Source: Hexactinellida sp. DTS-2022 (Eukaryota; Porifera; Hexactinellida). From it: 64,000 nucleotides of DNA. The stretch covers positions 1,240,001 to 1,304,000 of the forward strand of contig JAPNXP010000009.1 of NCBI GenBank assembly GCA_028753945.1. The letters run 5' to 3'. The notes below the pieces were generated by a model, which was given only the letters and a program-made list of their open reading frames with translations, ran no database searches and was not told the DNA's origin. Position numbers and translations under genes: made by a program. Of the stretch, positions 1 through 46,457 are shown piece by piece (the first letter of the stretch is position 1; each line of letters begins with the position of its first letter).

Positions 1-2430
1 GAGCCGGAGTATGGAGATGACAGCAAGCCTCTCGTCCAAACAGGGAAAGAAGGCTTTGAATTGGAACCAATGAACCAAGCTAACAAAAGTCTCGAGTTGC
101 AGAGTCCTATACTGTCTTTCGTAGATCAGCCAACGCTGATAGCTGATGAGCCAGAAGAAACAATGTTCTCGCACACGCGAATGGAATTAATTCGCCAAGA
201 GGAAAAGACAATGGTTGTCGCAAAGGATGAGTCTGAATCTTCTTTACAGGGAGTAACGTACCAGAATAATTTACGAAATATCCAGGTCTCTTTTAAGCTG
301 ATGGGTCTAATGTGTGACGGGCAGCAGAAGTTCCTACAGGATTACTTCCGTGAACAGCCGGACAATCCCGAGAATATCAACATGGTTATTAAAACAGTCA
401 ACTTCCTCAAGATATTCTACACGGACATCAACCAGGACAACATCAACCTTGTTGAGGAGGTATTCAGATCCCTCACCGAATTCGTCAGTGGAAACTTCGA
501 AAACCAGACTGATGCGTTTGGAGCTAAGATAATGGACGTGATTAATCGAATTTTCCAAACCGCCACTTTTAAACTTTGCTCCCTGAATGATATGGTAAAC
601 TTGTATGACGCTATTATCCGCTTTCTACAAGTAATAGTCGAAGAGACGAGTCTACAAACAAAGAATCTCGCTAGAGACCTGTACAGCGTGCTGGACGTGA
701 GCAGTGTGCACCAGGTGATTGCATTGCTCTACGAAATCCGGTGCGACAACTGTTTAGACAATAAACTCCGTGAAACGGCTGATGATGACATGTTCCGTCT
801 CTATCACTTTATCATCCACCTACGCGATTTTGATGCTATTCTAAACTTGGAAGATAGCTCCCGCATTATCCCACAGGAGAAGATAGACCCGGAATCGGTA
901 CTCAGAGCTTGGAACTATTGTTTACACCACTCAAAGTCCGTTGAGATTACCTACATAACCGAAGACAAAATTCCAATCCTAAATAAGGTGCATTTCCAAA
1001 GTCTCGATTCTGGCACACTATCAGAAGATGTGAGGGAGATTGTTAAATGGGATATCAACCGAGACTCGGCCGAGGACAAACTCAGAGATTTCCTCGATTG
1101 GTTTAAAGCTGTCAAGATAGACCAAAGCTACAGTTACAAACTGAGAAACACCATAGGCATAAAATATTATTTGAAGTACCAAACTTTCCGAAAATACTTT
1201 TTCTTGTTCTGGACCCTCATCCTCAATATCTTCTTACTGGCTACATGGCACTCTCCTTGTGTCTCTGTTGGTACTTCCACTGTTAACGGTACAATCATTT
1301 ATGAATGTAATGACCAGACTCCTAACGTGAGTCTCATCCCACCAATCCTACCCGTAGTCCCATCATGGTATTTCCTCGCATTCTTTCCATTGGGAGCGAT
1401 TCACCTCCTCCTGGCTCTCGATCTGCTGATTTTGTTCTACCTCGTGAACGCAGTTAACTTTTATATTCCATCTATCTTCTACAGCGTGATTCCAGTTGGA
1501 TTCGATAAGAGGAACTTGCGGATAAAGTGGAAGGTGGCTCCGGAGAGACGATACCTCCAAATAAACTTTTTCGGATCAAAAGTTGTATTTATTTGGATGA
1601 TATTTCTTTCTTCTGTGCTTTCCCTTCCTTTCCGCGGCTACTTCTACCCTATTTCTCTTCTCTTCATTTTGGAGAGGAGTGACATTCTCCGACGCGTGCT
1701 GCTCGCGGTAACCAAAAATGGAAAATCTCTCATTTTTGTTGCGATTTTCGGGTTCATAGTCATCTACATTTTCTCTGTGATCGGCTTTGCTCTCTTCTAC
1801 CAGCAAGCACAATCAACAATAGAACCTGATAACCCGAATTATGTCTTCTGTCGCACCCTATATGAATGCTTCATCAGCATTGGCAGGTGGGGTCTAATTG
1901 AAACAGTAGCAGTCATTCTCCCTCAGAGGACAATGAATTTCGTTGGAGAAATAGATCGTATTATCTACGATCTGTTATTCTTCATCATTATAACTGTGAT
2001 CGGATTGAACATTGTGTTTGGTATCATTGTGGATACCTTCTCCGAACTGCGAGACGAGAAGTACTCTCAGGAAAAGGATATGAAGAGCGTCTGTTTCATT
2101 TGTGGGATCGAGAACTACTTGTTCGACCGCAAGGGCAAAGGTTTCAAGGTTCACGTCAAGCATGAACACAATATGTGGGACTATTACAGCTTCTTCCTTT
2201 ACCTAGACAGCGTAGACCCCAGCGATCATACTGCTACCGAAAGTTTTGTGTTCAAGAAATTAGAGGAAAATGAGACAGCCTTCTTCCCGCAGAATTCAGC
2301 TCGATCTATCACAGTTGAAGAAGACGAGACAGCCCAAGAGCTCAGCACACTTGTAAACAAACTCGAAGAGCAATCGAATCAACTCAAGGAAATCTTGAAC
2401 AGAGTAAAGAAACTCGAGAAAACTAACTAG
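1..2430 (+). CDS. IP3 receptor-like calcium channel, C-terminal part (5' end outside window)
   Basis: The frame is open from base 1, so the gene continues upstream; the stop is at 2428-2430. The N-terminal part of what is visible is a RIH-associated region (motif NLRNIQVSFKLMGLMCDG, about 268-321). Several membrane segments follow (about 1190-1250, 1366-1470, 1570-1650, 1720-1800), then a pore region, then the last membrane helix (IIYDLLFF...NIVFGIIVDTF, 1957-2040). After that comes the linker zinc finger typical of IP3 receptors (CFIC...H...HNMW, 2092-2178) and a C-terminal coiled coil. In known IP3 receptors this part forms the ER calcium-release pore. The helix following the pore and the zinc finger are close to the family. 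The usual GGGVGD-type filter is absent: after the conserved Cys and Trp-Gly-Leu the sequence reads ETVAVILPQR. Ryanodine receptors are excluded by the short length between the RIH-associated region and the membrane domain. No intron is visible. Family assignment is sure; ion selectivity is not predictable. Confidence 0.93.
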   Translation, partial: EPEYGDDSKPLVQTGKEGFELEPMNQANKSLELQSPILSFVDQPTLIADEPEETMFSHTRMELIRQEEKTMVVAKDESESSLQGVTYQNNLRNIQVSFKLMGLMCDGQQKFLQDYFREQPDNPENINMVIKTVNFLKIFYTDINQDNINLVEEVFRSLTEFVSGNFENQTDAFGAKIMDVINRIFQTATFKLCSLNDMVNLYDAIIRFLQVIVEETSLQTKNLARDLYSVLDVSSVHQVIALLYEIRCDNCLDNKLRETADDDMFRLYHFIIHLRDFDAILNLEDSSRIIPQEKIDPESVLRAWNYCLHHSKSVEITYITEDKIPILNKVHFQSLDSGTLSEDVREIVKWDINRDSAEDKLRDFLDWFKAVKIDQSYSYKLRNTIGIKYYLKYQTFRKYFFLFWTLILNIFLLATWHSPCVSVGTSTVNGTIIYECNDQTPNVSLIPPILPVVPSWYFLAFFPLGAIHLLLALDLLILFYLVNAVNFYIPSIFYSVIPVGFDKRNLRIKWKVAPERRYLQINFFGSKVVFIWMIFLSSVLSLPFRGYFYPISLLFILERSDILRRVLLAVTKNGKSLIFVAIFGFIVIYIFSVIGFALFYQQAQSTIEPDNPNYVFCRTLYECFISIGRWGLIETVAVILPQRTMNFVGEIDRIIYDLLFFIIITVIGLNIVFGIIVDTFSELRDEKYSQEKDMKSVCFICGIENYLFDRKGKGFKVHVKHEHNMWDYYSFFLYLDSVDPSDHTATESFVFKKLEENETAFFPQNSARSITVEEDETAQELSTLVNKLEEQSNQLKEILNRVKKLEKTN

Positions 2431-2884: not shown

Positions 2885-3104
2885 CAGGGCCATAGCCACC
2901 AAAATCAAAGTGGTCAGGTTAATTTGACCAATCTGACAGAGTGGTCAGGTTAATTTGACCAATCTGACAGAGTGGTCAGGTTAATTTGACCAACCTTATC
3001 GAGTTGTAAGGTTAATCTGGCCAACAGGAGAGAGTGGTGCCATATTGGGAAATTAATCAACCAAAAGTGGTCAGGTTCAAACCTGACCAGTGGCTACGGC
3101 CCTG
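2885..3104. mobile_element. MITE-like element with 15-bp terminal inverted repeats and TTATT duplication
   Basis: The left end is CAGGGCCATAGCCAC and the right end is GTGGCTACGGCCCTG, inverted repeats with one mismatch. The element is flanked directly by TTATT on both sides (2880-2884 and 3105-3109), a likely 5-bp target-site duplication. The interior carries about three copies of a 31-bp unit starting GTGGTCAGGTTAATTTGACC (2910-2940, 2941-2971, 2972-3002). No transposase frame is present, so it is non-autonomous. Confidence 0.8.
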
Positions 3105-3992: not shown

Positions 3993-4259
3993 ACTGCAAT
4001 TCTATGTTATATCAGGTTACTTTTTATTGGTTGTTAATTTGATTAATGGTAAGCCCAAATTTGTGTTTATTTGATTTGTGTGTATAAATTTCTTGAATTA
4101 ATTTTTCATATTTGCTATCCATATACGTGTGTATATATAGTGCAGTGATGCTCAACATGAGGCCTGCGGTCCGGAATATGTAGATTCATTTCCACCTGTA
4201 GTATTATACAGGGGTGAGTGTATATGTTGTGGCCTACTGTATATTACTACAGATAGCGT

Positions 4260-6323
4260 ATGGATGAGAAGGTAGATATTGTACAGCTGAACGTAGGGGG
4301 GCGCAGGTTCACGACCTCCAAGCAGACGCTCACGTGGATTCCTGAGTCGTTCTTCGTGAGTCTCCTGAGTGGGCGGATCCCGTCAATGCGGGACGAGGTA
4401 GGCGCCATATTCATCGACCGAGACCCGGACCTGTTCGAGGTTATTCTCCACTTCATGCGCACTAAAGAGGTCAGCCCCAAAGACCGCAGCATCCGGAACC
4501 TGCGAACCGAGGCGGAGTACTACGGGCTGCAGCCGCTGACGATCCGTCTGAATCTCTGCGACGAGTTGGAGCGGTCGCTCTGCGGAGACATCCTCTTCTC
4601 GGGGATCATGCACCCGCGGGACTTCGTGTCCGACCAGGACTCGGTCTCCTCGGCGCAGTCCCGCTCCGCCGACGCCGGCAATCCGGTCCTGGCCATGACC
4701 AGCTGCGGGAACTGGGTGGGCGTGGCCTACGCGCACCACGTGTGCTGCTACGCACTGGAGGAGAGCCTGGGGTGGCAGCGCGGGTTCTACTCGCCCCTCC
4801 TCTCCAAGCCGCCGGAGAAGATCTGTCTCAACACCAAGGGCCACCTCATGCTAGCCGCATCCTTCGGGAACGAAATAAAACTGTGGAACTGCAAACCGCA
4901 GGCGCAGCAGGTGGAGATCGGCACGTTCGACCTCAAGAGTCCGGTTAGCGCCCTCTTCTTCATCGGGCCGCAGCTGGTGGCCATCAGCAGCGCGGGCAAG
5001 GTGGGCGTCTGGCACTACAGCAACCAGAACTGGACCGCCCAGGGGGTCTACGAGATAACCAGCTACACCTCCGTGGGCTCTCTGCTGGTCTGGGGCTCCT
5101 CCAACGGAATTATTAACTCTATAGACGTGCAGAAGTTCCCTCTGCGCATGAGCGATAACGACCTGCTGATAGTCGAGCTGTTCAACGACCCGCTGCACGA
5201 ACCTCCGACCGCCATGAGCGTGTTCGGGAACCCAGGCGCCGGCAACGTGCGGAACAGCTGGAGCGACGTGGAGTCGATCGGCCGCTGGCTGGAGGTGGCC
5301 TACGGGACCAGCAGCGGCAAGATTAGGATCGTGGTGCAGCACCCGGAGAACTTCGGACACGGGTTCCAGATAGTCCAGACCCTCACCGTGCACACCAGCC
5401 AGATATACACCATGTTCCTCGGAGAGAAGCACCTCATTTCGGTGTGCGCGGACCTGCACGTGAGGACCTGGCGACTCACGCGGTTCAGAGGTCGCCTGGC
5501 CACCCAGCCGGGCCCCACGCCCCTCGCGTGCTACCGACTGCTCTCCCTCGACGCGGGCGTGCGCGCCCCGCTCTGCTCCAGCCAGGGGCCCTTCGGGGAG
5601 CTGGACAACCAGCAGGTCTTCCTGCAGAAAGTGGTGCCCGACACCAACACCATCTTCGTGCGTCTCTCCGCCACCGGCGCGCGCGTCTGCAAGATCCAGT
5701 CGGTGGACAGCAGCAACATAACTGCCTACTACGTGCACGAGTGCGAGGCGCTGGGGAGACTGGGGTACCGCCCCAGGAAGTTCGTGTTTACCGGACACGC
5801 GAACGGGAGCGTCCAGCTGTGGGACCTGACACACACCCTCAACACTCTCAACGAGACTCCTGCCGACAGCGCGGAGGGGGGCCCCGACCAGTCCGAGCTC
5901 TTGGACCTCCTCAAGCACTGCGACCTCTCCGCCTCGCGCTCCTCCAGTCGCATGACGTCACTCAACGCCTCTCCCACTCCCTCCGCGCTCAGCCTCCGGT
6001 TCCAGCTCCGGCCCGCGGGCCCCGCCAGCGCCCCCCTCCACAGCCCGCTCCTCAGGAGAGCGTCCTCTCTGCACTGCGTCGCGGCCCCCAGCCCGCCCCA
6101 GCGACAGCCCTACCTCCTCACGCGCACCGACTCCTCCAGCAACTCCAGCGTGTACACGGACGAGCTGCCCGTGCCGGACGGAGCCCCCCATACGGTGGCG
6201 CCCTCCCCGCTGGAGCCCATATACTCCCAGGACGCCAGCTCGCCACTCACGGACGCCGACACGCCCACCAGTGAGCCGCACTTCGACCTATTCACTCAGG
6301 AAAATAGTAATTCAGATGTATGA
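4260..6323 (+). CDS. BTB/T1 and WD-repeat protein, KCTD3/SHKBP1 family (687 aa)
   Basis: The protein starts with a BTB/T1 tetramerisation-type domain (residues about 4-100, motif VQLNVGGRRFTTSKQTL and a typical DRDPDLFEVILHFMRT). A degenerate WD40 beta-propeller covers about residues 125-540. The tail from about 545 is rich in Ser and Pro, low in complexity, and has PxxP stretches. This order and length match the KCTD3/SHKBP1 family. In mammals KCTD3 associates with the HCN3 channel and SHKBP1 with SH3 adaptors; which one this represents cannot be decided. The frame is intronless and strikingly GC-rich compared with flanking DNA, which also creates long meaningless antisense frames. The start codon at 4260 gives a Met directly before the BTB fold. 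The stop is only 78 bp before the next start codon. Confidence 0.93.
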   Translation: MDEKVDIVQLNVGGRRFTTSKQTLTWIPESFFVSLLSGRIPSMRDEVGAIFIDRDPDLFEVILHFMRTKEVSPKDRSIRNLRTEAEYYGLQPLTIRLNLCDELERSLCGDILFSGIMHPRDFVSDQDSVSSAQSRSADAGNPVLAMTSCGNWVGVAYAHHVCCYALEESLGWQRGFYSPLLSKPPEKICLNTKGHLMLAASFGNEIKLWNCKPQAQQVEIGTFDLKSPVSALFFIGPQLVAISSAGKVGVWHYSNQNWTAQGVYEITSYTSVGSLLVWGSSNGIINSIDVQKFPLRMSDNDLLIVELFNDPLHEPPTAMSVFGNPGAGNVRNSWSDVESIGRWLEVAYGTSSGKIRIVVQHPENFGHGFQIVQTLTVHTSQIYTMFLGEKHLISVCADLHVRTWRLTRFRGRLATQPGPTPLACYRLLSLDAGVRAPLCSSQGPFGELDNQQVFLQKVVPDTNTIFVRLSATGARVCKIQSVDSSNITAYYVHECEALGRLGYRPRKFVFTGHANGSVQLWDLTHTLNTLNETPADSAEGGPDQSELLDLLKHCDLSASRSSSRMTSLNASPTPSALSLRFQLRPAGPASAPLHSPLLRRASSLHCVAAPSPPQRQPYLLTRTDSSSNSSVYTDELPVPDGAPHTVAPSPLEPIYSQDASSPLTDADTPTSEPHFDLFTQENSNSDV

Positions 6324-18372: not shown

Positions 18373-21300
18373 ATGGATCTCTCCTTAGGTAAGTATAGAG
18401 TGTGATACTAACTCCTAATGTTCTATCAACTCCCTATTGTGTAGATGACGTAATCAGCAATAAACAACGAATGGGCAGATACCCAAATAGCTCTGCAAGA
18501 GGTCGGGGGAGAGGAAGGGGGAGGGGGAGCATCAGAATAGGACAGAAGGAGTACAAAACTCTTACAATTAAAAAGGTGTTTATTTTGTACATTTGCCAAT
18601 ATACGTATAATTAATTTAATATAAACATATACACTAACAGAGCAAACTGGCGGGTGTGGACTTTTCCACGAGTTCTTCCCGAGATGATAATACGAAGCCA
18701 TTGATTGTATCCAGCTCTACACCCGGGAAGCGTTATTTCTCCGCTGTAAGTAATTAGTTATTCCTTCAGCTAATCACTAGACATTATTGCTTATTATACG
18801 TACTATATACAAACCTATTGTTCGCGGTCGTTTTGCGACGGATCACTTAACCACTACATGGTCTCTCTTTATTTATTAATAATACCTCTATGTTAGTCAT
18901 AGCAAGTTATTACAACATAACAACAAGTCAACCACAAAACAAAAACTTACTGTACATGTACTACAAATTGTGTCGATATTGCGTATTTGCCTACTATTTC
19001 CGTCGTATTATCTCAATTCCTAATTATTTAAGCTATAATTCAATCGCAATACGACTTTATTTATTTTTAATACACCATTGAATATCTTTCGTGACTCTGT
19101 ACACTACGCTGCCTTCAAAAGATATAACGATTAGCGCCACTAACCCTATAACCAAGGTGTACCTCAGTGTAGGCAGGAACTGGGAGCTGTAGAGATAGCC
19201 GTGTGTCCCTTTAGCGCTTATTGCTATGATATGTAACTCTGCTTGGTTAACTAAGTCCAGCACGTTATTCTTTCTGGATGATACGAACCCCATTAGCTCA
19301 TCTGGAAATCTGCTGAATGTATCTGTAAATCCAGATACTCCGTCTATAGCTAGCCACGTGCAAGATATTAGTATCAAATAGGTTGCATACTGTTTCAACA
19401 AAAAACGCGCTTCCAGTTGCCACAGTTCCTTCAGTAGGTTTCCTTCTGCGAAAAACAAACGCACTATAATAATACTGCCCATACCCAGCAAGGAACACAG
19501 GATATTGAGCGTAATTATGGCTCTGAACTTATCACAATATTCGTTGATTCTCGCAACTATTTCAAAGTATCCCTCTTTAATCCACGCTGTGTTGGGAGAA
19601 ACTATCAAATTTGTGAAGGTTGATACTGAATTCAGTGTGATATCAGTCTCAAGTTTTACGCACGCAACCCTACACAACAAGCAGACAATCACAGGTGAGA
19701 AATATCGCTGCGGAGCGTTAATGGCTCTTAATACTTCGGATATTCTACACACATAATTCGGCCAGTGTCTTTCAATTTCGCATTGTATACTATTCCCTTC
19801 TGCGGCTAGTGTTAACACAAGGAGGAGTATTAATACGCACTGCCATAGCATAGTGAATATACTTCTGCACGAGGCCGCGGGCTTGAATTTGATGCTACTT
19901 CTGACACTGTTCCTCACAAACTCGGAGTTCTGGGAATTCCAGACAGAGGTCCTGTTTCTACGAGTGCTCATTATAAGTCTGTGCGGGGTTATGCCATTCC
20001 TCGATGTATGCGAGTAATAGAACAGGAAGATGAGACTTGATAGAGATATTAAGTCGTAGCCAGCCTCCCACAAGTATATATAAACCTCCGTGGATCCGGT
20101 AGCACTCGCTTGGCTGCTGATTAACCGAAATGTATTGTTACAAAATGTGGGAACAATTAGGAAACTTGTTCTTAGAACCACAGTTGTCACCATCAATGCA
20201 AGCGAAATAATTTGACAAATTACCTCGCAGACAATGCAGATAATATAAGTTTTTCGGGATTTTTCTGAGACTACAGAACTTATGAAACTGAAGGTAATTA
20301 AGTAGAAAAGATATGCGAACATTCTCTGCGGCAAGTCTATAACGAAGCTCAAACCTTCCCTATTATTTCCCCATTCCAGACCGAGATCTTCATCTTCTTG
20401 TTCACTGTTGGAGTTGGAATGATTGCTATGCAGTAAACTCTCCAATCTGGGGTTACTAGCGACCTCTCTTGTAGCCATTTAACTAACTGTATAATTCAGT
20501 TATTATACTGTGAATAGTCCGTTATTTGTATTACTCCAATAATTGTAATCATAATCTCTATCCATAATATAATACATATACTCTATCTCAAGTTTCTTTT
20601 GTCAATTCAAGAATTATATTCGAATGACATCATCTATCAAAGCAGTTGCTCAGAATGATATGTTGGTAACGGTTACGGATTGATTATAATTATCTTTAAA
20701 TTACAAACCACTTCTCGATTATCCATCCTGCTAAATTTGTTAGATTATAATCAGTGATATAATTCTCCTAAACAATTGATTACACTGGTATACTTAATTA
20801 ATATTTCTGATGTGTTTAGATATTAGTTGAGAAGCTCTAATTATGATTCTTTGGTTAATTTTGTTTGTTTGATTTAGAGTGACTCGGATTACCAGTACCA
20901 GCGCCCTACTAGCTTCAATAACCGAGGTTTTAAAAGGAGATCTCAGTCTAATATTCAGAACCGAATTGGTGAAGGTAGCTCGAGTAGATCTAGGCAAGAC
21001 GAGGACAATACAAGCCAGTTGAACCGTGGGAGGGGGGCGAATAGAAGGAACAGAGGATCACTAGTAAATCTCAATAAGTAAATAATATAAAATTTTATAT
21101 AAAGTTATTTAAGTTCATGACTCAAATCCTGTAATGTACTTTAGAACAGTTCCCCGTGTGGGCAGTAATGACCGTGGATTTAAAGGCCTCGCTTCTAATA
21201 GCAAAAAGATTAGAGCGTATTCTACCGGATACCTGAAATCGCCCTCTAAAAACAGAGAACTTATTAATCAGCACATTGAGTTGAGTCCGCCAAACTACTC

Positions 21301-27475: not shown

Positions 27476-27554
27476 CCTATACCAATTGGCCTTTCTTAAT
27501 TAACTCAGCATTTAGTATTATTTTATTTCGCATTGTTTTCTACCCAATTCCTCA

Positions 27555-28562
27555 ATGCCTGGTCATGAAGAATCAAATAAAATATTTACCTCGAAAAAAG
27601 TTCGATCAATAATTAGGGCCTACCTCTTCTCTAAGTTTGCAATTTTTTATATTTTACTTCTAATATATCTCCTGCTTGGGGGAGTATTCTTTCATTTTCT
27701 GGAAGGGCCTGATGAGGTTTTGAAGAGAAACGCAGCCACCGAAGAACTTTCCAAAATCCGTTCTAACGTCGAATTATTCCTAAAGTCAGTCAACATTTCC
27801 AATGATACGATTCACGGCTCGCAGGTTAATTTAGTGGGCTCTTACATAGTTGAGCTTAGCCAGAATCTGTCCACCCTAGTGTCTCAGTCTTCTTCCATCA
27901 TGAAATGGTCGTATCCCCGTTCCGTTTATTTCTCGTTCATTGCTATTACAACTATTGGCTATGGGCAGCTGGCTCCAACTACGTCACGCGGCCAAATATT
28001 CCTATGTTTCTACGCACTATTTGGAATACCAATATTCCTACTTCTCGTCACGGAGACTTCTACTCGCATGACTAACGCGTTTGACCGATTTGTCCTGAGA
28101 AGATTGAGAGATGAGAGGTACAGATGGATTGCCATAGTGATAGGGTTCATTGCTGGACTGATCGCCTTTATTTTCATCCCAGCTGGTATATTCGCGGCAA
28201 TAGAGAGTTGGCGGTACTCGACCTCCGCTTACTTCGCTTTCGTGTCTCTTTCTACAATTGGGTTCGGAGACTTTGTCCTGGCAAATAATCCGGATGCGGA
28301 CTATAACAGAGTAGAAGCTGTTGGTGAATTGTATCTCATTTCAACCATTCTGTGGTTGTACCTAGGTCTCGTCTTTATAGCTATTATCATTGAGCAGGTA
28401 GGTACTGGGATTATGAAATTGGAAAAGTATATTTCGAGATTAATTGACAGATATTTGGCAAAAAGAAGTGAAGATCAAGGCAACATATTGCAGGAAATAG
28501 TGGATACTAAGCCCCAACCCAACGATAGCGAGTTGTTACCCTCAACTACTGCTATCAGTTGA
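27555..28562 (+). CDS. Two-pore-domain (K2P) potassium channel (335 aa)
   Basis: The K2P plan is clear. First membrane helix at about 29-50 (FYILLLIYLLLGGVFF); a long extracellular cap with NxS/NxT sites at about 51-115; first pore loop ITTIGYGQLAPTT (Thr132-Gln138); helices 2 and 3; second pore loop LSTIGFGDFV (Thr234-Asp239); last helix at about 275-295; short cytoplasmic tail. K2P channels are dimeric background potassium-leak channels of the plasma membrane. The first filter is followed by Gln where Asp, Asn or His is more usual, which may bear on pH gating. Length is typical. Intronless. Subfamily cannot be fixed. Confidence 0.95.
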   Translation: MPGHEESNKIFTSKKVRSIIRAYLFSKFAIFYILLLIYLLLGGVFFHFLEGPDEVLKRNAATEELSKIRSNVELFLKSVNISNDTIHGSQVNLVGSYIVELSQNLSTLVSQSSSIMKWSYPRSVYFSFIAITTIGYGQLAPTTSRGQIFLCFYALFGIPIFLLLVTETSTRMTNAFDRFVLRRLRDERYRWIAIVIGFIAGLIAFIFIPAGIFAAIESWRYSTSAYFAFVSLSTIGFGDFVLANNPDADYNRVEAVGELYLISTILWLYLGLVFIAIIIEQVGTGIMKLEKYISRLIDRYLAKRSEDQGNILQEIVDTKPQPNDSELLPSTTAIS

Positions 28563-30625: not shown

Positions 30626-33600
30626 ATGTCCACTTCAGAAGAATGCTCCCAACTTTCTCAAGACCTTTTCACCTCCATTGAGACTATCGAACAAGATTCA
30701 ATACTATCCAAAGAAGAAGAACAAATACCGAATGATCAGAATAACCTGGTTGTCTCTGACAATGTGAATTCTTCATTTATTGATCCTGTCTCCTCGATTG
30801 AGATTGTTACCACCCAACAATCCGACACACTCAACTCAACCGTTTCCTTCCAGGACTCCAACTTGCATAATAATAGCCATGCCTCATTGGACACCACCCC
30901 CGATGCCCACACCATCGACCTACCCCCCTCTTCTCCCGATGCTCTCTCACAAGACAGCCAAAACTTAGAGGAGAACGGAAGAGACATTGAGGTACTCACT
31001 ATCTACGTATATATATAGACATTTCCGTTTGTATATTATTGATTGTTTGGTAGGAGTTTCTTGATACATTCGACCCCGAGCCCAGCTCCTCTATCAACGC
31101 GCCAGATCAAGACTACAACTCCATCGACCGAGATAACTCCGAGCCCGACGACTCGTCAGATCAGGGCGACTCGGCTGAGTCTGAGATGGGCTACCATTAT
31201 ACGCCGCACACCTATGACCAACCCCCCTTCACGAAGTGAGTTGTGTATACGACCATAGTTGACACTTACAAATAATACATTGTACTTATTCAGTTACGTG
31301 CTGACTGCTCACGATCAGCTCCGCATCTGCTTGGACAAGAACCTGCAGTACCAGGCCTGGATCAAGCACCAGCTGCAGCTGATAGAGTACGTAGAAATGA
31401 AACTCCGAGAAGACCAGGAGAAGCTGCAGACCCTAGCCAAGAACGCCACCAAGGGAACGCGCGCTCAGGCTAAGAACATGATCACGCTTAGAAAGTTCTT
31501 CCCATACTTCAGGTTCGAAATTTATTTATTTATTTATTCAATGTTTAAAAATGCTGCTTAGGGACCAGAACGGGCTGCCTCCCCCCATCGACAAGTCCGC
31601 CATTAAGAACGAAGCGCACCAGTACGGACTCTACGACAAGCCCGCCTCCAAATGGACGGAGAAAGAGCGTCAGGACCTGGCCAAGGGGGTGCGCATGCAG
31701 AACCTGGAGACTTTATGTCGACCCATGATGCTGGAGCTGGAGAGCGTCACGGACGCGCGCGGCCGTGAGATCAGGCGGGAGATCGAGGCGATGAAGAGGA
31801 AACCCGACCACGAGTTAGAGTTGAACTTAGAGGGAGTCGAGTGGGATAAGTTGGCCATCGACATGACCCCTAACAGGTGTGTGTGTCTCTATTTAACCTT
31901 CTTATCTCAACGCTAATATCTTAACTACCACAGACACCCGATGGAATGCAAGTTGCAATGGATACAGATAGACCACCCCCTGGTGTCCCGCAAGAGCTGG
32001 AATAAGCAAGAGGATAAGTCTCTGCTGAAGCTGGCAAAGGAGAACAGAGAGAGAGATTGGAACACGATTGCTATGCGACTGAAGTCTAACCGAACTCCAG
32101 TGCAGTGTCTCCAGCGCTACCAGACCGCGCTCAACACGGAGCACGTGAAGCGGGAGTGGTCACACGATGACGACGAGAAGCTGAGGGTGGCGGTAGCCAA
32201 GTGCGGGGTTGGGAACTGGCAAGAGGTATGTGGCCCTCCTTTAAGTCAGGCCTGGTTCTTATAATCGTATCTCTCGATAGGTTGCTAATTTCATGGGCAA
32301 TAGCCACACGGGGGCACAGTGTCTCAATCGGTGGGACAAAACCATAAAGCCCACATTTCGGAAGGGTAAGTGGACAGAGGAGGAAGACAACCTTCTCAAG
32401 AGGGGAGTAGACATGTACGGAATTGGGAACTGGAAGAAGATAGCTTCAATCGTTACTAGTCGCACGGATGTGCAGTGTAGAGAGAGATGGGTCAACATTC
32501 TGGACCCAACTATTGATCATGGTTCGTTTTAATTAGTAATTTATTGCTCATGATATTCACATGCTCTTTAGTTTCCAAACTATACTACTGGTACTCCAAT
32601 CACAAAAGTTCATTCTATTTTTATACATGCTTAAATAAGGCGTCGTGATTATTGATTCAATGACCCTTTGCTAGTTTAACTTCCTAGTTTATGTGTGGTT
32701 ATTCTCCACAAAATCTAACCTTCGTACAAGATCAACTCTCATGTATATTTATTGTAGTGCGTACAAGATTATTCTTATGGATACGCCATATTTCTTACAA
32801 AGCCATTTGCATAAGATTCCTCAAGGAGTTTATTCCCAGTTCTATGCACGTGTACTAGCATAGTTCTATACTTAGTATATCAAGTTGGGTAATTAAATTA
32901 TATTTATGAAATCATCTTCCTTGCTGCTCAGTGATTCAGCAGAGTTCGACCCTAAGTGCGTGTCATCACCTGTACCTGTTTCTCCGTATGACAAATCGCG
33001 GCATTTGATACCACCAGACCTCAAGAATGATCTCAGCGCATCGAGAGATAATTTGTTAGATAATAGTACAGAGATTCAGTCTGCACATGATTTCTCAAAT
33101 GTTGATATAAAGTTTTTGGAAGATTTCCTTTCTTTCTCTCAGGAGTTCCGAAGGGAAACAGCTGATTTATCTCAGCATCAGGTCTCTGGGTTGGGGAAAC
33201 GCCTGTCTCACTCAGCCTCTCAGGATTTGATAAGTGGTCTCCTAAAACTGTCGAAATGGTCCCTGCCCCCTTCTGTCCTTGCGGCGTACAAGAGCATCGG
33301 CATAGAGTGCATGTTCCGGTGGCAAGCGGAGTGTCTCATGAAGCAGGACGTTCTCGTGGGTCGTAACCTGGTATACTCGGCCCCCACCAGCTCTGGGAAG
33401 ACTCTGGTAGCGGAGATGTTGATCCTGAAGAGAATCCTGGAGACCAATAAGAAAGCTCTGTACGTGCTCCCCTACGTTAGCATTGTGAGTGAGAAGGTGC
33501 TGCAGCTGCGGAAACTGCTGAAAGAGTGTGGCCTGACTGTCGGGGGGTTCATGGGGGGCTCGGCCCCCAGAGGAGGGTTCTCCAATGTGGATATTGCAGT

Positions 33601-36600
33601 GTGCACTATTGAGAAGGCGAACAGCTTGGTGAATAGACTAATCGAGGAGAAGAGTCTAGACGATTCGCTCTGCATACTCGTGGTGGATGAGATTCACATG
33701 ATCAGTGATCCGCACCGCGGGTATCTGCTAGAGCTCCTATTGACTAAAGTCAAGTACCTCACCAGCTGCGGTGACTATTCACTGCCGCACAGCTCCCTGC
33801 AAGTTGTCGGGCTGAGTGCGACTCTTCCAAACCTGGACACTCTCTCCAAATGGTTATCAGCTGAGTTCTATACAGCTGACTTCCGCCCAGTCGAACTCAA
33901 CGAGATGATACTCTGTAAGAACAAACTCTACGACACCAATCTCTCCCTCGTGCGCTCTCTCCCCGCCTCCTCAGATGTGCTGGATAACATTAAATATCTC
34001 TGCAGCGAGACTCTGCAGGCAGGACACTCGCTGTTGATATTCTGTCGCACCAAGCGCTGGTGTGAGAAAATGTGTGAGGAGATTAAGAACTTCATTAGAG
34101 ATAACCCAACTAGCTTCAGTAACTGTTTACCTGATAATGCCAGGTCCGTGAGCACGCGTCAAATGCTGGTTGAGAGCAGCAGAGAGCCAGACCCCCTGCT
34201 AATCCAGTGTCTCCCTTTCAAGGTCGGATTCCATCACGCAGGTCTCACTATCCAGGAGAGAGAAATCGTAGAAGGTGCATTCAGTAGCGGAATTCTACGA
34301 ATCCTGACAGCTACCTCAACCCTCTCCTCCGGCGTTAACCTTCCCGCCAGGAGAGTCATTATCCGCTCGCTCACACAGGTGCGCAACAGGGATGTTATAG
34401 AGCCGGTCTCGTACCGACAGATGTGCGGGCGAGCCGGCAGAACGGGGCTGGATGACTACGGAGAGTCCATCTTGGTATGCGAGCCCCACCAGCTGGAGAA
34501 AGCGCGCGCTTTGTTGAACGCAACCCTTAAGCCTGTCAACAGCTGTCTCAACACAGACAATACAGAAGTATTCCGGCACTATGCCGTTAAGCGAGCCCTG
34601 TTGGAGGTTATAACTCTCGGCGTTGTAAGAAACAGGTCCGAGGCACAAGTCTACATAAAGCATACTCTGCTGGCGACTCATTCCCAGGAATTAACCATTG
34701 AGCTCATCGTAGAAACCTGTTTTCAATTCCTCCTCGACTGTGAGTTTATCGAATACAAGCACAAACAGCCGCTAACCACAAGTGGTCTGGAGGAGGTGGC
34801 GCCCACCCAGCTGGGCTCCGCGACCCTCTCCTCCTCCCTCTCCCCGGACGAGGCACTATTCGTTATCGACGAGATAAACAGGGCCAGACAGAGCTTCGTG
34901 CTGGAGAACGATCTCCACATGGTGTACCTGGTCACGCCCATCTGTCTGCAGGACCTGTGGTCGGACGGGGAGCCCCGCTGGAAGGAGTACATGGACATGG
35001 TCGGCAAGCTGAACGCGGATATGAAGCGAGTCGCGGACCGCGTCGGTGTGAACGAGGGCTACATCACCAGGTGCATCAAGGGGAGCTGTAGGACGGATAG
35101 CGAGGGAGACCGGAAGCTGCTGGCTATACACAAGCGATTCCGCGCTGCGCTTGCTCTGAATGAGTTGGTACGCGAAGTCCCGCTGCATGAGGTTGCGCGG
35201 AAGTTTGACCTTCCAAAGGGTCAGCTCCAGAGCCTTCAGATCTCAGCTGGTACCTTTGCCGGGATGGTGACCGTCTTCTGTAAGAAACTAGGCTTTAGGA
35301 ACATTGAACTTCTTATTTCGCAGTTCCAAACGCGGCTTGAGTTTGGTATTGAGCAGGAGCTGAGTGAGTTGGTGAAGATTTCCCTTCTGAATGGGTATCG
35401 GGCACGGGCTCTCTACAATGCTGGGTTCCACAGTCTCGTTCTCATCGCAGACGCGGGAGTTGAGATAATCTCAAAAACTCTGAGAGATGCGCACCCCTTC
35501 CATCAACAGGACAAACCTGGCACAGATGACAAGAACTGGATCTCCGCACTCAGGAAGGGACTGAGTGTACGCGAGGTCGCAGCTGAGGTTATAGCTGAAG
35601 CCAAACTACTTTTGGAGGAGGACAGGGCCCTGCCCCTCCCTCCCCGCTCCCCTATTGTCCCCTCTCAGCCTATCAGCTCCGTAATTACTCCGGTCAACGA
35701 ACGGCTGAGGTCGAGTCAATCCAACAAACCTCATTTTAGGCGGGGAATAAAAAGTGATAGTATTTGTCAATCTCTGTTCTTCTCTCCTGTTGAGACGTCG
35801 CCTCCTAAGCGACTGAAGCAAGACTCACAGCTTTCTCTCGAGATACAGATCAACCCACCTCTGGAAAGTCAAGAGATTAATCCTGAAGTTAATATTCAGC
35901 AAGAAATTATTGTAAAAGAAAATGAATTTTCTTCAAGTTTGAAAACTGACTTACAATCACATAATTCATATTCCATTGGCCGAGTAGTCCCATGTTCCCT
36001 ACAGGATTCTGATGGGTTTCTGACCCGATTTGACTCTTCTCAGGATTCAGCGTTTGATTTCGGTTCGATACCACCTGATTTATCTGCTATTAAGACTGAC
36101 TTGGTTGACACTATGTCTCCAGCTGTGTCACCAATACCACATGAGAATAATACCAGTGATATTCCCAATAGCTCTGCATTAACTCCCGCACAGACTTCTG
36201 AAGACGAATTTGTTCTCTTCTACTCTCCAACTCAAACTCCGATCTTAACTCCTCCTCCCTTGTATGTTACTTCTCCAGCCAAACAAGTTAAACCAACAAA
36301 CTCTCTTTCTATCTCGAATGAACTTCTTCATCAGTCTATATTTGAGAACACGACTTTGTCTTGTGAGAAAAAGTTCAGTCTAGTTCAAGGCATATCTATT
36401 CTAGATTCCACCCTACCTACTACAGCGGAGGAATGGAATGCTGATAGAATGCAAGAATCTTTGAAGACAACTTTCGCACAAGTCAAAATGCCCGAGAGCT
36501 TAAGCCTTGCATCAATTACTCAAACAGACGTATACCCAAACTCTGACAATTTTCGAAAACTCGAAGAGAAATGTTCCACTTCACCTTTCTTTAGTTTTGC

Positions 36601-39600
36601 TTTATCAATCAAAGCCTCAAATTTATTCTCAACAAAGATAGCATCATCTCCAGTACCTCCGGACTTGCTGCAAGGAATAGCATTATTCTTTGGAGAGGAA
36701 CAAGTATTCTATTTGGAACACTCTCCTCCGATTCCCCTCGTGGAGTCCGCCTCTCTCCACGAGTTCCTATCAGTCCTGTCTCTGCGCGAGCCTCCCAGCT
36801 GTCTGGTTGCCTGGGACATTAAATCCAAACTGGTTTCCCTCCTCAAGTGCAATGTTACAATCCGTGCGTTGCTCGCGGACCCACAGCTCGCGGTCTGGCT
36901 GCACAATCCTGAGTCTGACCCCCTCCCTCTGTCCCAGCAACTAACAAACGTTCGTTATTTCCCTCGCGGCCCCGGCTCTTGGCTGGATAGACTGGAACAT
37001 GGCACTCAAGCGCATCGAGCTTGCGCGCAGGCAATAGCCTCCCTGCTGCTCATGAGGGAGCTGGAAGCGAGACTCAGGCGAGACGGAGTCTTCCAAGTGT
37101 TCCTGTTTAACGAAATGCCGGCTATTTCCAACTTCGCTGTTCTTGAGGTTAACGGGATAGGGGTGGATTCGGCTCTGCTGGACCAGAATTCGCGTCAGAT
37201 CGAGCTAGAACTTAAGACCATCTCGCAGAAGGCTCAGCTCCTCGCTAGCGACAACTTCGATCTGTCGCGGGAGTCCGAGGTAGCGCGGGTTCTATTCTCG
37301 GATCTGCAGCTGCCGGTCCCCGCCCCGCAGAGACGGGACTGCAAGTTAAAGTTCAGTCCTCGTAGGAGCAAGCGCCCCAGCACCTCCCGCGAAGTGCTGC
37401 TGGACCTGAGAGAGATGCATCCGATCGTGGACCTGATAATGGCTCACAGGAGAGAGGAGTATGCTCTCAGCAGGTGCCTGTATCCGCTCAAGAAGGCGAT
37501 TGTCCATCGCACTGGCAGGGTCTATCCCAAGAGTAGCTTCCACACCGTGACAGGGCGAGTGCTCCTGGAGAACCCAGACCTCCAACACACCCCCAGAGAC
37601 TTCGAACTACCGGAATCTGTCTCCTCTAATAAAACCACTCACAGTATGAGGAGCACTTTCAAGGCCAGCCCGGGGAATGTTCTTATATCAGCTGACTACT
37701 CACAGCTGGAATTGCGGATTTTGACACATCTGTGTAGCGACCCTAACCTGATGGAAATATTCTCTTCGCCGGGAGATATTTTCAAACTTATCGCCTCGAG
37801 TTTCTACAAAGTCCCAGCTTTGACTGTGACAGACACTCAGAGAAACAACGCCAAACAGATCTGCTATGGGATCCTGTATGGAATGGGGTCTGAAAGCTTA
37901 GCTAAAAAAATGGGCATTTCACTCGTTGAGGCCACCCAGCTTATTTCTAGCTTCAAGGATCGCTTCAAAGAAATCGATGTGTTTATGGACGGACTTATAA
38001 TCAGCAGTAGAGAGACTGGGTATGTGCGCTCTCTCTTGGGCAGGCGGAGGTACATTAAGAATATAAGCAGCAAATACTCGTACGAGTCTAGCGAGGCGAA
38101 GAGAAAAGCAATAAACACAACTATCCAGTCTTCCGCTTCGGATTTGGTTAAACTTGGACTCAACAGATTGTTCCGAGAGCTGCACCGACAGGATATCCGT
38201 GTGACTTCCTCTCCTGTCGGGGCGAGCGGGGAAGAGGTGCTGTTTTGTAATTTCCTCCATGACGAGTTAATTTTCGAAGTTTCAGAGCATTTTAAGCATC
38301 AAGCTTAATCTGCCCCTCCCTGTAGTCGTTAAGTCGGGAACATCATGGGGAAAACTAGTTCCTCTTGATGTATAATGATGTGCTATGAGTTAGTCTAGAT
38401 TTGTATTAATTCCTTCTGTACTCTGTGATATTAAATGTTAAATGCAGCCCCTGGGGCACTGCAAGAATGCTATGTTATTTGTGAGAATGTACAAACTCTG
38501 TTATCTCAATTTCAATCGTGTAATACAGTGAACTTAACTTGTTATAACGAAGTTATATCCTAGTAAACTCTTGGTTTACTTTGATATAAGCGGAGTAAAG
38601 CTATTGGTCTATATTTACTTCGTTATAACGGGAGTTGACTGTAGTTTGATTTTAATCAAATAGCTTTCCCAATTCACTTAGGTTAATTAGGCTTAAATTT
38701 CCTGTATTTATATCTAAGGTAATGCGTATAGTGTATGTGCATTCTGATAGGAAAGTGGACACGAGAGGAAGATGAAATCCTGTTGCGGTTCGTGGCTAAG
38801 TTCGGGCCTGGGAAATGGTCCCAGCTGGCCTCAGTGATGGGCTCGCGCACAGACAACATGGTGATGCGGAGGTGGGAGAAACTGAACAAGCCGGGTGTGG
38901 TGGCCAAGTACCGACTGCTGCGACTGAAAGCCAAGTTCGCGAGAGGAGCTGACAGCAAGGTCAAGCCCACCCTGGAGCCTGAGGACCTCGATGTCAGCAT
39001 CCTCCCGGAAAAAGCCAGGGAGAAGGTCAGACGGATTAAGCGATCAGCTGGTTGGTAATAAACCAATATACGTGTTAATAACGGACGCAAAGGGACTAGC
39101 CAAACTGCCGTTATGTACAGGTGCCCGTTATACGCTATGTCGTTATGTATAGGTCCCATTGATTTGTTATCGTAAAATAATGTGGGAAGCTTTTTAATCC
39201 CGTTATAGACAGGTTCTACTGTACATAGATAACATAATTATTGCGATTTAAGAATACTTTCTCAGGTAAGATCCGGAGACATAGCTCGAGGACCGCTTAC
39301 GACTGTCCCTATGAGAAAGACAGACCTTATGCCAAGCCGATCCGCCCCACGAAGAAGTACGCTACTCTCGGCCGACCCAAGGGGTCCAAGTCCCGCCTAA
39401 TCTTCCGAGAGAGCGACACGGACGTTCTGGGATCGGACATCTCGATTCTCGAAGGGGAGGTGGTACAGTTTACAGACGGTACTACTCCTTTAGTTTCCCA
39501 TACAATCTCTATACTGTATACCAACTTGTAGGCAAGGTTCCGATAAAGAAGTCGAAGTTCCGCCGGAAGCGCCGGAACCCCAGCTGCGATACGGACTCCA

Positions 39601-43820: not shown

Positions 43821-46457
43821 ATGTCTGTTGATAATGAAAATGGCCTAGACGCTCCACTTTCCAGCCATTCATTACAGCCCACAGACAAAGTGCTCTCCAA
43901 GCGAGTGAAGATACCTGTCAACTTCAACGACAAGTTCCTCTGTCTCATCAGGGAGGCTAAACTGGACCCAGACTTCCCCGGGGCAGAGAGCTACCTGCGG
44001 GAGAGGGGACTCGAGATAATCCGGTCCCCAGACGGGAATGAGTTGCCAGACACCGTACCGGACAACTCTGAAATTGTATTCGTTTTTGTCGACTTTGAAT
44101 CCACAGAGTTCTCTAACCTGTCCAAGACCGGTCTCCCCATAATCACCCCTAACGTAATCCGGTCCTGCATGCTCCGCAAGGTGGATGTCCCCTTCCCCTC
44201 CCGGCCCATGCTCAGCGCGCACATGTACGGACTCTCCGTCATATTCACGGGGTTCCGCGAGCAGGGCCGCCTGGACGACCTGGTGAAGAAGGTGCACCTC
44301 ATGGGCGGCGGCGTCCGGAAGGAGATCGGGATGGGCGTGACGCATCTGGTGGCTCACTCCGTGCTCGGCACCAAGTACCAGTTGGCGCTCTCCTTTGGCA
44401 CCTGCATGATGAGCGAGCAGTGGGTGCAGCGGGTCTTCGAGAGACGCGGCGACCCCAACGGGACCGCTCTGGACGAGGAGTTCTCTCAGTTCACCCTCTC
44501 CCCCTTCACGGGACTCACTCTCTGGTTCTGCAGCTTCTCGGCTGAGGACCAGCGCTCCATGGAGGCCCTGGCGCAGGAGAACGGAGCCCTCATCTTCCAA
44601 GAGTCCGAGGGCGCCACGACCGGCGTGGTTAGAGCCACGCACTGCGTGATGGGAGAAGTCAGCGCGGAGGCAATGCTGCGCGTGTCTCCCAAGATACGAC
44701 TCGTCAACCAGGAATGGTTCTGGGAGAGCATCCGCATGGAGGCGTGCGCCGACGACAACCTCTACTCGCTAAGAGAAAACAAGCGGCATTCGCGGAATAA
44801 GCCGCGAGCCAAGCGGCGCCGACAGTTCCGCAACAGCAACGTGTCCACCTCTCTCCACGAGGCGTCCGTGCTCACCCTCAGCCCCGCCACGCCCCTGGTG
44901 GACGTCTCCGCCTCCGAGCCGGACCCGCGCGCGGAACAGGACGCCTCCAGGCGCCACATCGCCGTGGAGCTGCTGCAGACAGAGGAGAACTTTGTCAACA
45001 TTCTCGACGTCATCATCAACTCGTTCAAGAGACCCATCGACCAGACTGAGCAGCGCGGGGGGCCTGTATTATCCGGTGAGTACAGCAAGACTATATTCGG
45101 AAACCTGGAGGACATATTCGAGACGCACAAGCAGTTCAAGCACAGTCTGGAGGAGCGCATCGACTCGTGGGACCCCAACGCGATGATCGGACAGGTGGTG
45201 CTCAAGCACGCGGAGGCTTTCTCCAAGGTGTACCCTCCTTTCACGAACTTCTACGAGCAGGGAAAGCGGACCCTGGAGAAGTGCCGACAGCAGTTCCCGA
45301 GGTTCCACGCATTCCTGAAAGTGGTAGAAGCCAAGCCGGAGTGTTTGCGCCAGCCGCTAGTGGACCTGTTAATCCAGCCGGTGCAGCGGCTCCCGCGACT
45401 AATCCTCCTGCTCCAGGAGCTCTCGAAACACACCTCTGAGGAGCACCCGGACAGCAGCATGCTCCTGCAGGCCATCTCCAAGCTCAGGAGCGTGCTGGAG
45501 TACATCAACGAGGATAAGCGGAAGACGCAGGTGCAGATGCAGATGTTCGAGATAGTGCGGGAGATCCAGGACTGCCCCCCCGACCTCCTCGCGTCGCACC
45601 GACACTTCGTGACCAAGCTGGACTTCGTGGAGCCGCAGAGCTCAGCTGACACTGTTTACACGTTCTTCCTCTTCAACGACTATTTCGAGATTGCTAAGAA
45701 CCGCGCGGGCATGGGTAAGAAGGTGGCACACGGCAAGACGCAGTATAAACACAACAAATACCTGCATCTCTCATTCGTCCAGATAGTGATTGACGTTAAG
45801 GACATGCCCGACTACACTGCTCAGAACACATTCGCTATTCTTAACGGAGTCCTCGGCACTGTGATGCTATTCCGCATTGTGCAGTCGGAGCACACCAAGG
45901 AGGAGTTCATAAAGATCCTCTGCAAGACCATCGTGGACTCGAGAGGGCTCAGCGACTCCCTGGAGGACCCGAGCGAGCTGCTCATGAGCTACACCTGGCA
46001 GCAGCTGCAGCCCTCGGTCGCCAACGAGTCCCAGGCCCGGGCGCTGGCGGGCAATAGTCCCTTCAAGCTGTCTCTCCGCCGCGTGTTCGACAAGACGAAG
46101 AAGGTACACCGGGTATTCTCTCAGAAGATCGACCGGTCGAAGCAGCAGAAGCGCACTCGCTCTAAGCTGGGGCCCGGCAGAACGGATAGCATGCTGGACA
46201 TGGCTGATGACGTCGTCTCGGAGAACTCCATGGCCACACCACACAATCTCCAACACAGTATTTCCTCCAACTTCACACCCGGTCCCATCACCAAACTCAA
46301 TTTCTGCGAAGAAGCGGATCCCAACGACTCGCTCGTCTCGCTGGCTCCCAACCTCAACTACGGAGACGTGCCTCCTTGCTCTAAGCGCGTGGCCACGAAC
46401 GAAGAGATTCTGACTAGTCAGGGCACTGAGGAACAGCCCACGACAACTCGGCTGTAG
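43821..46457 (+). CDS. ECT2: ECT2 Rho guanine-nucleotide exchange factor (878 aa)
   Basis: N-terminal BRCT-type region of three modules (about 20-310, e.g. LSAHMYGLSVIFTGFREQGR, GVTHLVAHSVLGTKYQLALS, WFWESI), then a basic nuclear signal (KPRAKRRRQ, about 328). A DH domain follows at about 374-566 (VELLQTEENFVNILDVI, GGPVLSGEYSKTIFGN, HEED-like INEDKRKTQ), then a PH domain at about 590-705 and a basic, Ser-rich C-terminal tail. This order is unique to ECT2/Pebble, which activates RhoA at the midzone for cytokinesis, the BRCT part binding phosphorylated centralspindlin. One intronless frame, GC-rich, about the usual length (human form about 880-910). Confidence 0.96.
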   Translation: MSVDNENGLDAPLSSHSLQPTDKVLSKRVKIPVNFNDKFLCLIREAKLDPDFPGAESYLRERGLEIIRSPDGNELPDTVPDNSEIVFVFVDFESTEFSNLSKTGLPIITPNVIRSCMLRKVDVPFPSRPMLSAHMYGLSVIFTGFREQGRLDDLVKKVHLMGGGVRKEIGMGVTHLVAHSVLGTKYQLALSFGTCMMSEQWVQRVFERRGDPNGTALDEEFSQFTLSPFTGLTLWFCSFSAEDQRSMEALAQENGALIFQESEGATTGVVRATHCVMGEVSAEAMLRVSPKIRLVNQEWFWESIRMEACADDNLYSLRENKRHSRNKPRAKRRRQFRNSNVSTSLHEASVLTLSPATPLVDVSASEPDPRAEQDASRRHIAVELLQTEENFVNILDVIINSFKRPIDQTEQRGGPVLSGEYSKTIFGNLEDIFETHKQFKHSLEERIDSWDPNAMIGQVVLKHAEAFSKVYPPFTNFYEQGKRTLEKCRQQFPRFHAFLKVVEAKPECLRQPLVDLLIQPVQRLPRLILLLQELSKHTSEEHPDSSMLLQAISKLRSVLEYINEDKRKTQVQMQMFEIVREIQDCPPDLLASHRHFVTKLDFVEPQSSADTVYTFFLFNDYFEIAKNRAGMGKKVAHGKTQYKHNKYLHLSFVQIVIDVKDMPDYTAQNTFAILNGVLGTVMLFRIVQSEHTKEEFIKILCKTIVDSRGLSDSLEDPSELLMSYTWQQLQPSVANESQARALAGNSPFKLSLRRVFDKTKKVHRVFSQKIDRSKQQKRTRSKLGPGRTDSMLDMADDVVSENSMATPHNLQHSISSNFTPGPITKLNFCEEADPNDSLVSLAPNLNYGDVPPCSKRVATNEEILTSQGTEEQPTTTRL

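Follow-up and report, generated by a model that had tools for sequence, protein, structure and literature searches.

The first gene in the 64,000 nucleotides of Hexactinellida sp. DTS-2022 DNA analysed here (hereafter, the window) is, as far as sequence comparison goes, an IP3-receptor paralogue by descent that is devoid of the defining pore feature of an IP3-gated Ca2+ channel, reading TVAVIL (within ETVAVILPQR) where IP3 and ryanodine receptors carry GGG[V/I]GD. The motif by which such a channel is recognised is equally absent from two full-length paralogues on another contig (C8) of the same genome, and all three genes are conserved under purifying selection next to filter-bearing receptors elsewhere in the genome. 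On balance, and by a slight preference, we read the three proteins as non-conducting subunits or scaffolds derived from an IP3 receptor.

Frame 1 is open from the first base of the window to a stop codon at 2428-2430, in agreement with the continuous frame claimed in the original prediction, and the gene, at about 1234325-1242430 of G000:C18, begins ~5.7 kb upstream of the window. With the upstream sequence added, the open frame extends to 2704 intron-free codons, and its first ATG, which has an in-frame stop codon immediately 5' of it, gives a protein of 2701 residues. Searches against Pfam matched RIH_assoc (E 6.5e-21) and Ion_trans (E 4.8e-12) in the part of the gene within the window and, over the cut-offs, all five of Ins145_P3_rec, MIR, RIH, RIH_assoc and Ion_trans in the full-length gene. 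The solved structures closest to the full-length protein were chains of ITPR2, ITPR1 and ITPR3, followed by ryanodine receptors (253.7 bits vs. the ITPR2 chain and 170.4 bits vs. the best ryanodine receptor chain); the part within the window likewise had IP3 receptors first and ryanodine receptors next. Ryanodine receptors are marked by RyR and SPRY repeats and a length of about 5000 aa; these repeats were absent among the Pfam hits of the 2701-aa window gene. By these sequence marks, the gene belongs to the IP3 receptor family by descent, not to the ryanodine receptors. The positions of its main parts are listed in Table 1.

Table 1. Parts of the filter-less IP3-receptor-like gene that lie within the window (window coordinates).
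Feature	Position	Strand	Basis or remark
3' part (809 codons + stop) of single-exon IP3-receptor-like gene	1..2430	+	whole gene = 2701 codons
RIH_assoc domain	265..555	+	Pfam PF08454
S5 helix	1696..1797	+	helix borders by alignment
Cys + pore helix (CRTLYECFISIGRW)	1849..1890	+	alignment
ETVAVILPQR at the place of the filter	1900..1929	+	GGGVGD columns 1903-1920 (TVAVIL) if ungapped
S6 helix IIYDLLFF...NIVFGIIVDTF, Phe/Ile gate positions kept	1960..2049	+	alignment
C2H2 zinc finger CFIC...H....H	2092..2169	+	
Acidic, Leu-rich C-terminal tail, putatively coiled-coil-like	2326..2427	+	read from sequence

HMMER and MAFFT agree on the order of the pore, i.e., Cys, pore helix, ETVAVILPQR, S6 and C2H2 zinc finger (window gene vs. 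IP3 receptor: CRTLYECFISIGRWGLIETVAVILPQ). Aligned without gaps, T-V-A-V-I-L (1903-1920) falls on GGGVGD and the second Gly of the filter is Val or Ile in the three genes; HMMER deletes two glycines, placing T..VAV on G..VGD, and the same two-residue gap in one of the C8 copies places T..IGQ on G..VGD. That is, judged from the alignments, the glycine run and the Asp of the filter are gone whichever of the two is used, so the central claim of the original prediction, that ETVAVILPQR has replaced the filter with loss of both, is confirmed. The prediction had also described the surroundings of the filter as conserved throughout; this is correct for the Cys, S6 and the zinc finger but not for the Trp of Trp-Gly-Leu, as RWGL, among the sequences compared, is restricted to the three filter-less genes, the IP3 receptors showing QGL, QGM or SGF at this place. 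The pattern [WF]GLI[EN] recalls the TRPC filter; a 76-residue pore query, taken to E values up to 10, found IP3R or RyR chains in 30 out of the 30 matches listed and no TRP channel among them, and we keep the idea of a TRPC-like filter as a lead.

With the window protein as query, the genome from which the window comes (18 contigs, 112.4 Mb in total) yielded eight matches, representing seven genes (two pieces on contig C13 were counted as one), and a search with RIH_assoc gave eight matches to the same seven. Ins145_P3_rec was detected in five of these genes; the receptors on contigs C15 and C11 escaped it, probably owing to N-termini spread over short exons, since tblastn with ITPR2 finds both N-termini in pieces. 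The two C8 paralogues are single-exon genes in opposite orientation, separated by about 50 kb, with TIGQFI and TIAQFI in the filter columns. Each shares 51% identity with the window gene and matches four of the five IP3R domains in Pfam, with RIH (PF01365) not reaching E 0.001. A second, canonical receptor in the same genome, which the original prediction had proposed to look for, was found: multi-exon IP3 receptors with a filter are present on C15 (GGGIGD) and on C11 (DGGIGD, a drifted filter). The other two genes are ryanodine-receptor-like, one on C10 with a drifted filter (GGGVSD) and one on C13 (best match an RyR3 chain, E 1.2e-89) with no GGGxGD. Overall, the strict filter is found in one of the seven superfamily genes, a version one position off in two, and none in four.

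The drifted filters of these other receptors (C11, DGGIGD; C10, GGGVSD) are at loci L007:1399-1671 and L004:1447-2886. The C13 gene (L006:1462-3678, minus strand; about 40.8-43.1 kb of G000:C13) has LLGQIPGGTLNLSERF as its pore, keeps the zinc finger and much of S6, and apparently represents, from its sequence, a second and separate loss of the filter. Ryanodine receptors have been reported for Oopsacas in excerpts of PMC10280926.

Alternatively, the filter might be missing from the window gene because of an assembly error, a hidden exon, a frameshift or decay into a pseudogene, the first two of which the original prediction had named as capable of overturning it. We regard this possibility as barely credible. 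The same loss is found at two further loci, both on another contig, and hence is not an assembly slip, and the open frames of the three filter-less loci are 2639-2704 codons long. A rough search based on a simple consensus score found no frame-keeping GT-AG intron spanning the filter, and all three paralogues lack GGG, GGxxGD and G[GA][VI]GD in their reading frame, the matches in other frames lying elsewhere; a GGGxGD shifted to another part of the frame, for which the prediction had allowed, is accordingly not there. A 40-base intron-like GT...CAG stretch over the filter (1887-1926, GTGGGG...CTCAG) was also considered and rejected, since excising a number of bases not divisible by three would disrupt the frame. 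As to decay, whole-gene comparison of the window gene with the C8 copies by the Nei-Gojobori method, with no confidence limits and at high dS, gave pS of 0.82-0.83 and pN of about 0.32. Synonymous sites are thus almost saturated although the proteins have stayed conserved, and therefore these are functional genes rather than decaying pseudogenes, which the open frames and a pN well under pS rule out; the constraint that the prediction had seen in the window gene is real, given its full length and this evidence of purifying selection. By the same method, and with the same caveats, dN/dS in the pore loop (41 residues) was 0.17-0.21 for the window gene vs. the C8 copies and 0.27 between the C8 copies, for which it was 0.48 overall, 0.16 from S5 to S6, 0.36 in S6 plus zinc finger and 0.69 in residues 2290-2440, where few sites differ.

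Within the pore module, identity in all three proteins was 85% in S5, 79% in S6, 74% in the linker and zinc finger, 70% in the P-S6 linker, 64% in the pore helix, 59% in the S5-pore loop and 43% in the filter stretch, making the last the lowest of the seven parts and about as conserved as the protein on average (45.5%). S5 and S6 rank among the best-conserved regions of the protein, and stretches near residues 190 and 1351 are equally well kept. The replacements in the filter stretch are conservative (E/D, V/I, A/G, I/F and L/I), and the [E/D]T that precedes it and the PQR that follows it are kept in all three proteins. It follows that the place of the filter is the least guarded part of a well-guarded pore, which argues against a new, finely tuned filter, and also that it is not free to drift, being kept at about the protein average.

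These data bear directly on whether the pore has been rebuilt, with the E/D (1900-1902) and the next Thr acting as a selectivity ring of a non-selective or monovalent ER cation channel or counter-ion channel. We find this rather unlikely. The [E/D]T shared by the three proteins would suit such a ring, as would the strong conservation of S5, S6 and the gate (the Phe/Ile positions of S6, which we take to be the gate residues) and the T-I-G-Q of one C8 copy, which lies on (G)V-G-D under HMMER-style gapping; however, the stretch that would have to select ions is the least conserved in the module, hydrophobic residues occupy the place of the Gly and Asp, and an AlphaFold2 model of the pore (11-row alignment; mean pLDDT 54.2, pTM 0.31) is of low confidence, with the filter loop under pLDDT 50, and too weak to interpret. 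Non-conduction is the reading that we prefer because modest conservation at this place is the reverse of what is expected of a working filter, and because a single filter change suffices in mammalian receptors: Ca2+ release fails in IP3R1 D2550A, according to excerpts of PMC6700175, and IP3R2 G2498S and changes of IP3R1 Gly-2506 are described as dead pores in excerpts of PMC7939385. G2498S puts a Ser at the second Gly of the filter, the position that is Val or Ile in the three genes in the ungapped alignment. Hence, of the roles that the original prediction had considered (altered selectivity, absence of conduction, or regulation of a normal paralogue), absence of conduction is favoured over altered selectivity. 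The setting that all three roles presuppose is in place: filter-bearing IP3 receptors in the genome, a full-length gene under purifying selection and a loss that three genes share. Two observations nevertheless count against non-conduction in a scaffold: S5 and S6 are not obviously needed at such high conservation by a mere scaffold, and the filter stretch is still kept at the protein average, with conservative changes and with its acidic residue and Thr retained.

The ligand sites were compared in an alignment against an ITPR2 chain, with a numbering of the IP3-contact residues and positions of the Ca2+ site that we assume to be the accepted ones. In the alpha domain, all three filter-less genes keep the contacts K508, R511, R568 and K569, with R504 changed to K and Y567 to S; in the beta domain, the TTxR motif (R269) is lost, and R265 has an Arg opposite to it in the HMMER but not in the MAFFT alignment. 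Because the IP3-contact residues are partly lost, the filter-less proteins are predicted to bind IP3 weakly or not at all. Of the two acidic residues of the Ca2+ activation site in RIH_assoc, one Glu is kept and the other is Asp, and the Thr of that site is Ser in the window gene and Cys in the C8 copies, so that these proteins may still sense Ca2+. By contrast, the C15 receptor retains the R...R of the beta domain and RQKLIRE and YRKNQ of the alpha domain, so the genome has one normal-looking receptor, and the C11 receptor has lost the beta-domain arginines with its filter present, so this loss is not special to the filter-less clade. In excerpts of PMC7939385, IP3 binding is reduced by R269W, which alters the TTxR motif, and tetramers that contain a pair of R269W subunits are mostly non-functional, whereas a tetramer in which two G2498S subunits are combined with two normal ones retains significant function; therefore, a dead filter alone need not be dominant. 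Proteins weak in both the filter and the ligand site could thus act as a brake through the ligand site, or as a scaffold.

Phylogenetic placement was assessed with three trees (9 rows, 111-150 columns), in all of which the three filter-less genes form one clade (support from 100/98 to 100/100). The clade stands apart from the ryanodine receptors with support of 99/98 in the tree that had only 58 residues of C11, of 99/99 in the tree without the filter columns, for which a warning of long branches meeting applies, and of a weak 60/47 in the tree in which C11 was complete and the filter columns were retained; its branch is long (0.9-1.9) and its position among IP3 receptors is not settled by these trees. 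IP3R-B is a receptor type described for Capsaspora and invertebrates, which Alzayady reportedly treated in 2015. If the three genes descended from that ancient lineage, the filter loss would be one step in a long-standing loss of IP3-gated release, an origin that we deem improbable. An affinity to IP3 rather than ryanodine receptors, the long branch and the partial loss of IP3 contacts all fit it, IP3R-B being described as unable to bind IP3 in excerpts of PMC9113742; but the trees took in no IP3R-B sequence, the split from ryanodine receptors weakens to the value given above with the filter columns and full C11, and the idea concerns descent, not function, fitting a non-conducting and a rebuilt pore alike.

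The three filter-less genes are free of introns and the C15 and C11 receptors match in many separate pieces, which is suggestive of a retrogene origin of the former, and only suggestive because the genome seems intron-poor in general. For instance, very long single open frames elsewhere in the window (32897-38308, 43821-46457 and 4257-6323, plus strand; by eye, a helicase-polymerase of the POLQ type, ECT2-like and KCTD3-like, with BTB_2 the one Pfam-matched name) make this genome look unusually intron-poor, and excerpts of PMC10282587 report an abundance of single-exon genes in the glass sponge Aphrocallistes. The window further contains a 473-aa hydrophobic, apparently multi-pass membrane protein (19057-20478, minus strand), gustatory-receptor-like in looks only and with no Pfam match even at E 1, and a two-pore-domain K+ channel-like gene in one open frame (27516-28562, plus strand; Ion_trans_2 match), whose filters are GYGQ (first) and GFGD (second). 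GYGD would be usual in the first of these. Just 3' of the IP3-receptor-like gene are a hairpin with 45-base arms and a 31-base tandem array (2658-2755 and 2909-3038), with copies of the hairpin in at least three other places and of the array on at least 14 of the 18 contigs, based on the 40 of 1288 candidates that were scored.

Under the non-conducting reading, this clade of IP3-receptor paralogues, which kept the domain layout, gate helix and zinc finger and lost the selectivity filter, would form IP3-receptor-shaped subunits without the usual passage of Ca2+ that may work as regulators or scaffolds. Such subunits could assemble together with filter-bearing receptors in the same cell and dampen their activity, or, alternatively, anchor ER contact sites or partner proteins; according to excerpts of PMC6700175, pore-dead IP3R1 and IP3R2 still support ER-mitochondria contacts. 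Non-conduction, assembly and regulation are what we infer for the clade, and co-assembly with the C15 receptor (35-38% identity to the clade over the pore and C-terminal region) is hypothetical. For the broader account, in which a duplicated IP3 receptor gave rise to a conserved family with a replaced filter and a kept gate (dominant-negative or scaffold, or else an ER channel with a displaced acidic ring) and one of the two ryanodine-receptor-like genes lost its filter separately, we see even chances. A conserved, full-length, filter-less family makes it possible to ask directly what the rest of the protein does without carrying Ca2+, with the roles of scaffold, IP3 or Ca2+ sensor and brake on normal receptors as candidates; should the pore still conduct, it would offer a second solution to permeation on the IP3R frame.

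No animal IP3-receptor family without the filter was announced in the titles and abstract beginnings searched, a scope that leaves most subscription journals outside. Scanned with the three-protein alignment, neither IMG/VR viral contigs (33 pattern matches) nor GTDB contigs (160 pattern matches) yielded a relative; IMG/VR and GTDB are viral and prokaryotic, so this result is uninformative on other animals. Compared to ITPR1-3, the window clade is alike in size, in the order of the Ins145, MIR, RIH, RIH_assoc and Ion_trans domains, and in the pore module, S6 gate residues and C2H2 zinc finger, but has no GGG[V/I]GD, has lost or altered beta-domain IP3 contacts, and has Ser or Cys for the Thr of the Ca2+ site; unlike the filter-bearing IP3 receptors of its own genome, it has no introns. 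With IP3R-B it shares an IP3-receptor-like make-up and, as predicted from its contact residues, poor or no binding of IP3. MCUb, a model for a paralogue that makes a mixed channel less active, belongs to an unrelated channel, and its likeness to the clade would be functional only. The filter motif is called conserved in metazoan receptors in excerpts of PMC3213138, and a conserved GGGXGD is reported for parasite homologues in those of PMC3194816. Paramecium has filter variants, and its CRC-VI group consists of IP3R/RyR-family proteins practically without similarity in the filter region (PMC3213138, excerpts), much like the window clade; however, CRC-VI is from a ciliate, whereas the window clade is from an animal and is made up of full-length copies that exist beside filter-bearing receptors. 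Finally, the D2550A and G2498S mutants, as the excerpts portray them, resemble the window clade in having a changed filter and an otherwise intact protein, but these are single laboratory or patient mutations, whereas the window clade is a conserved natural gene family.
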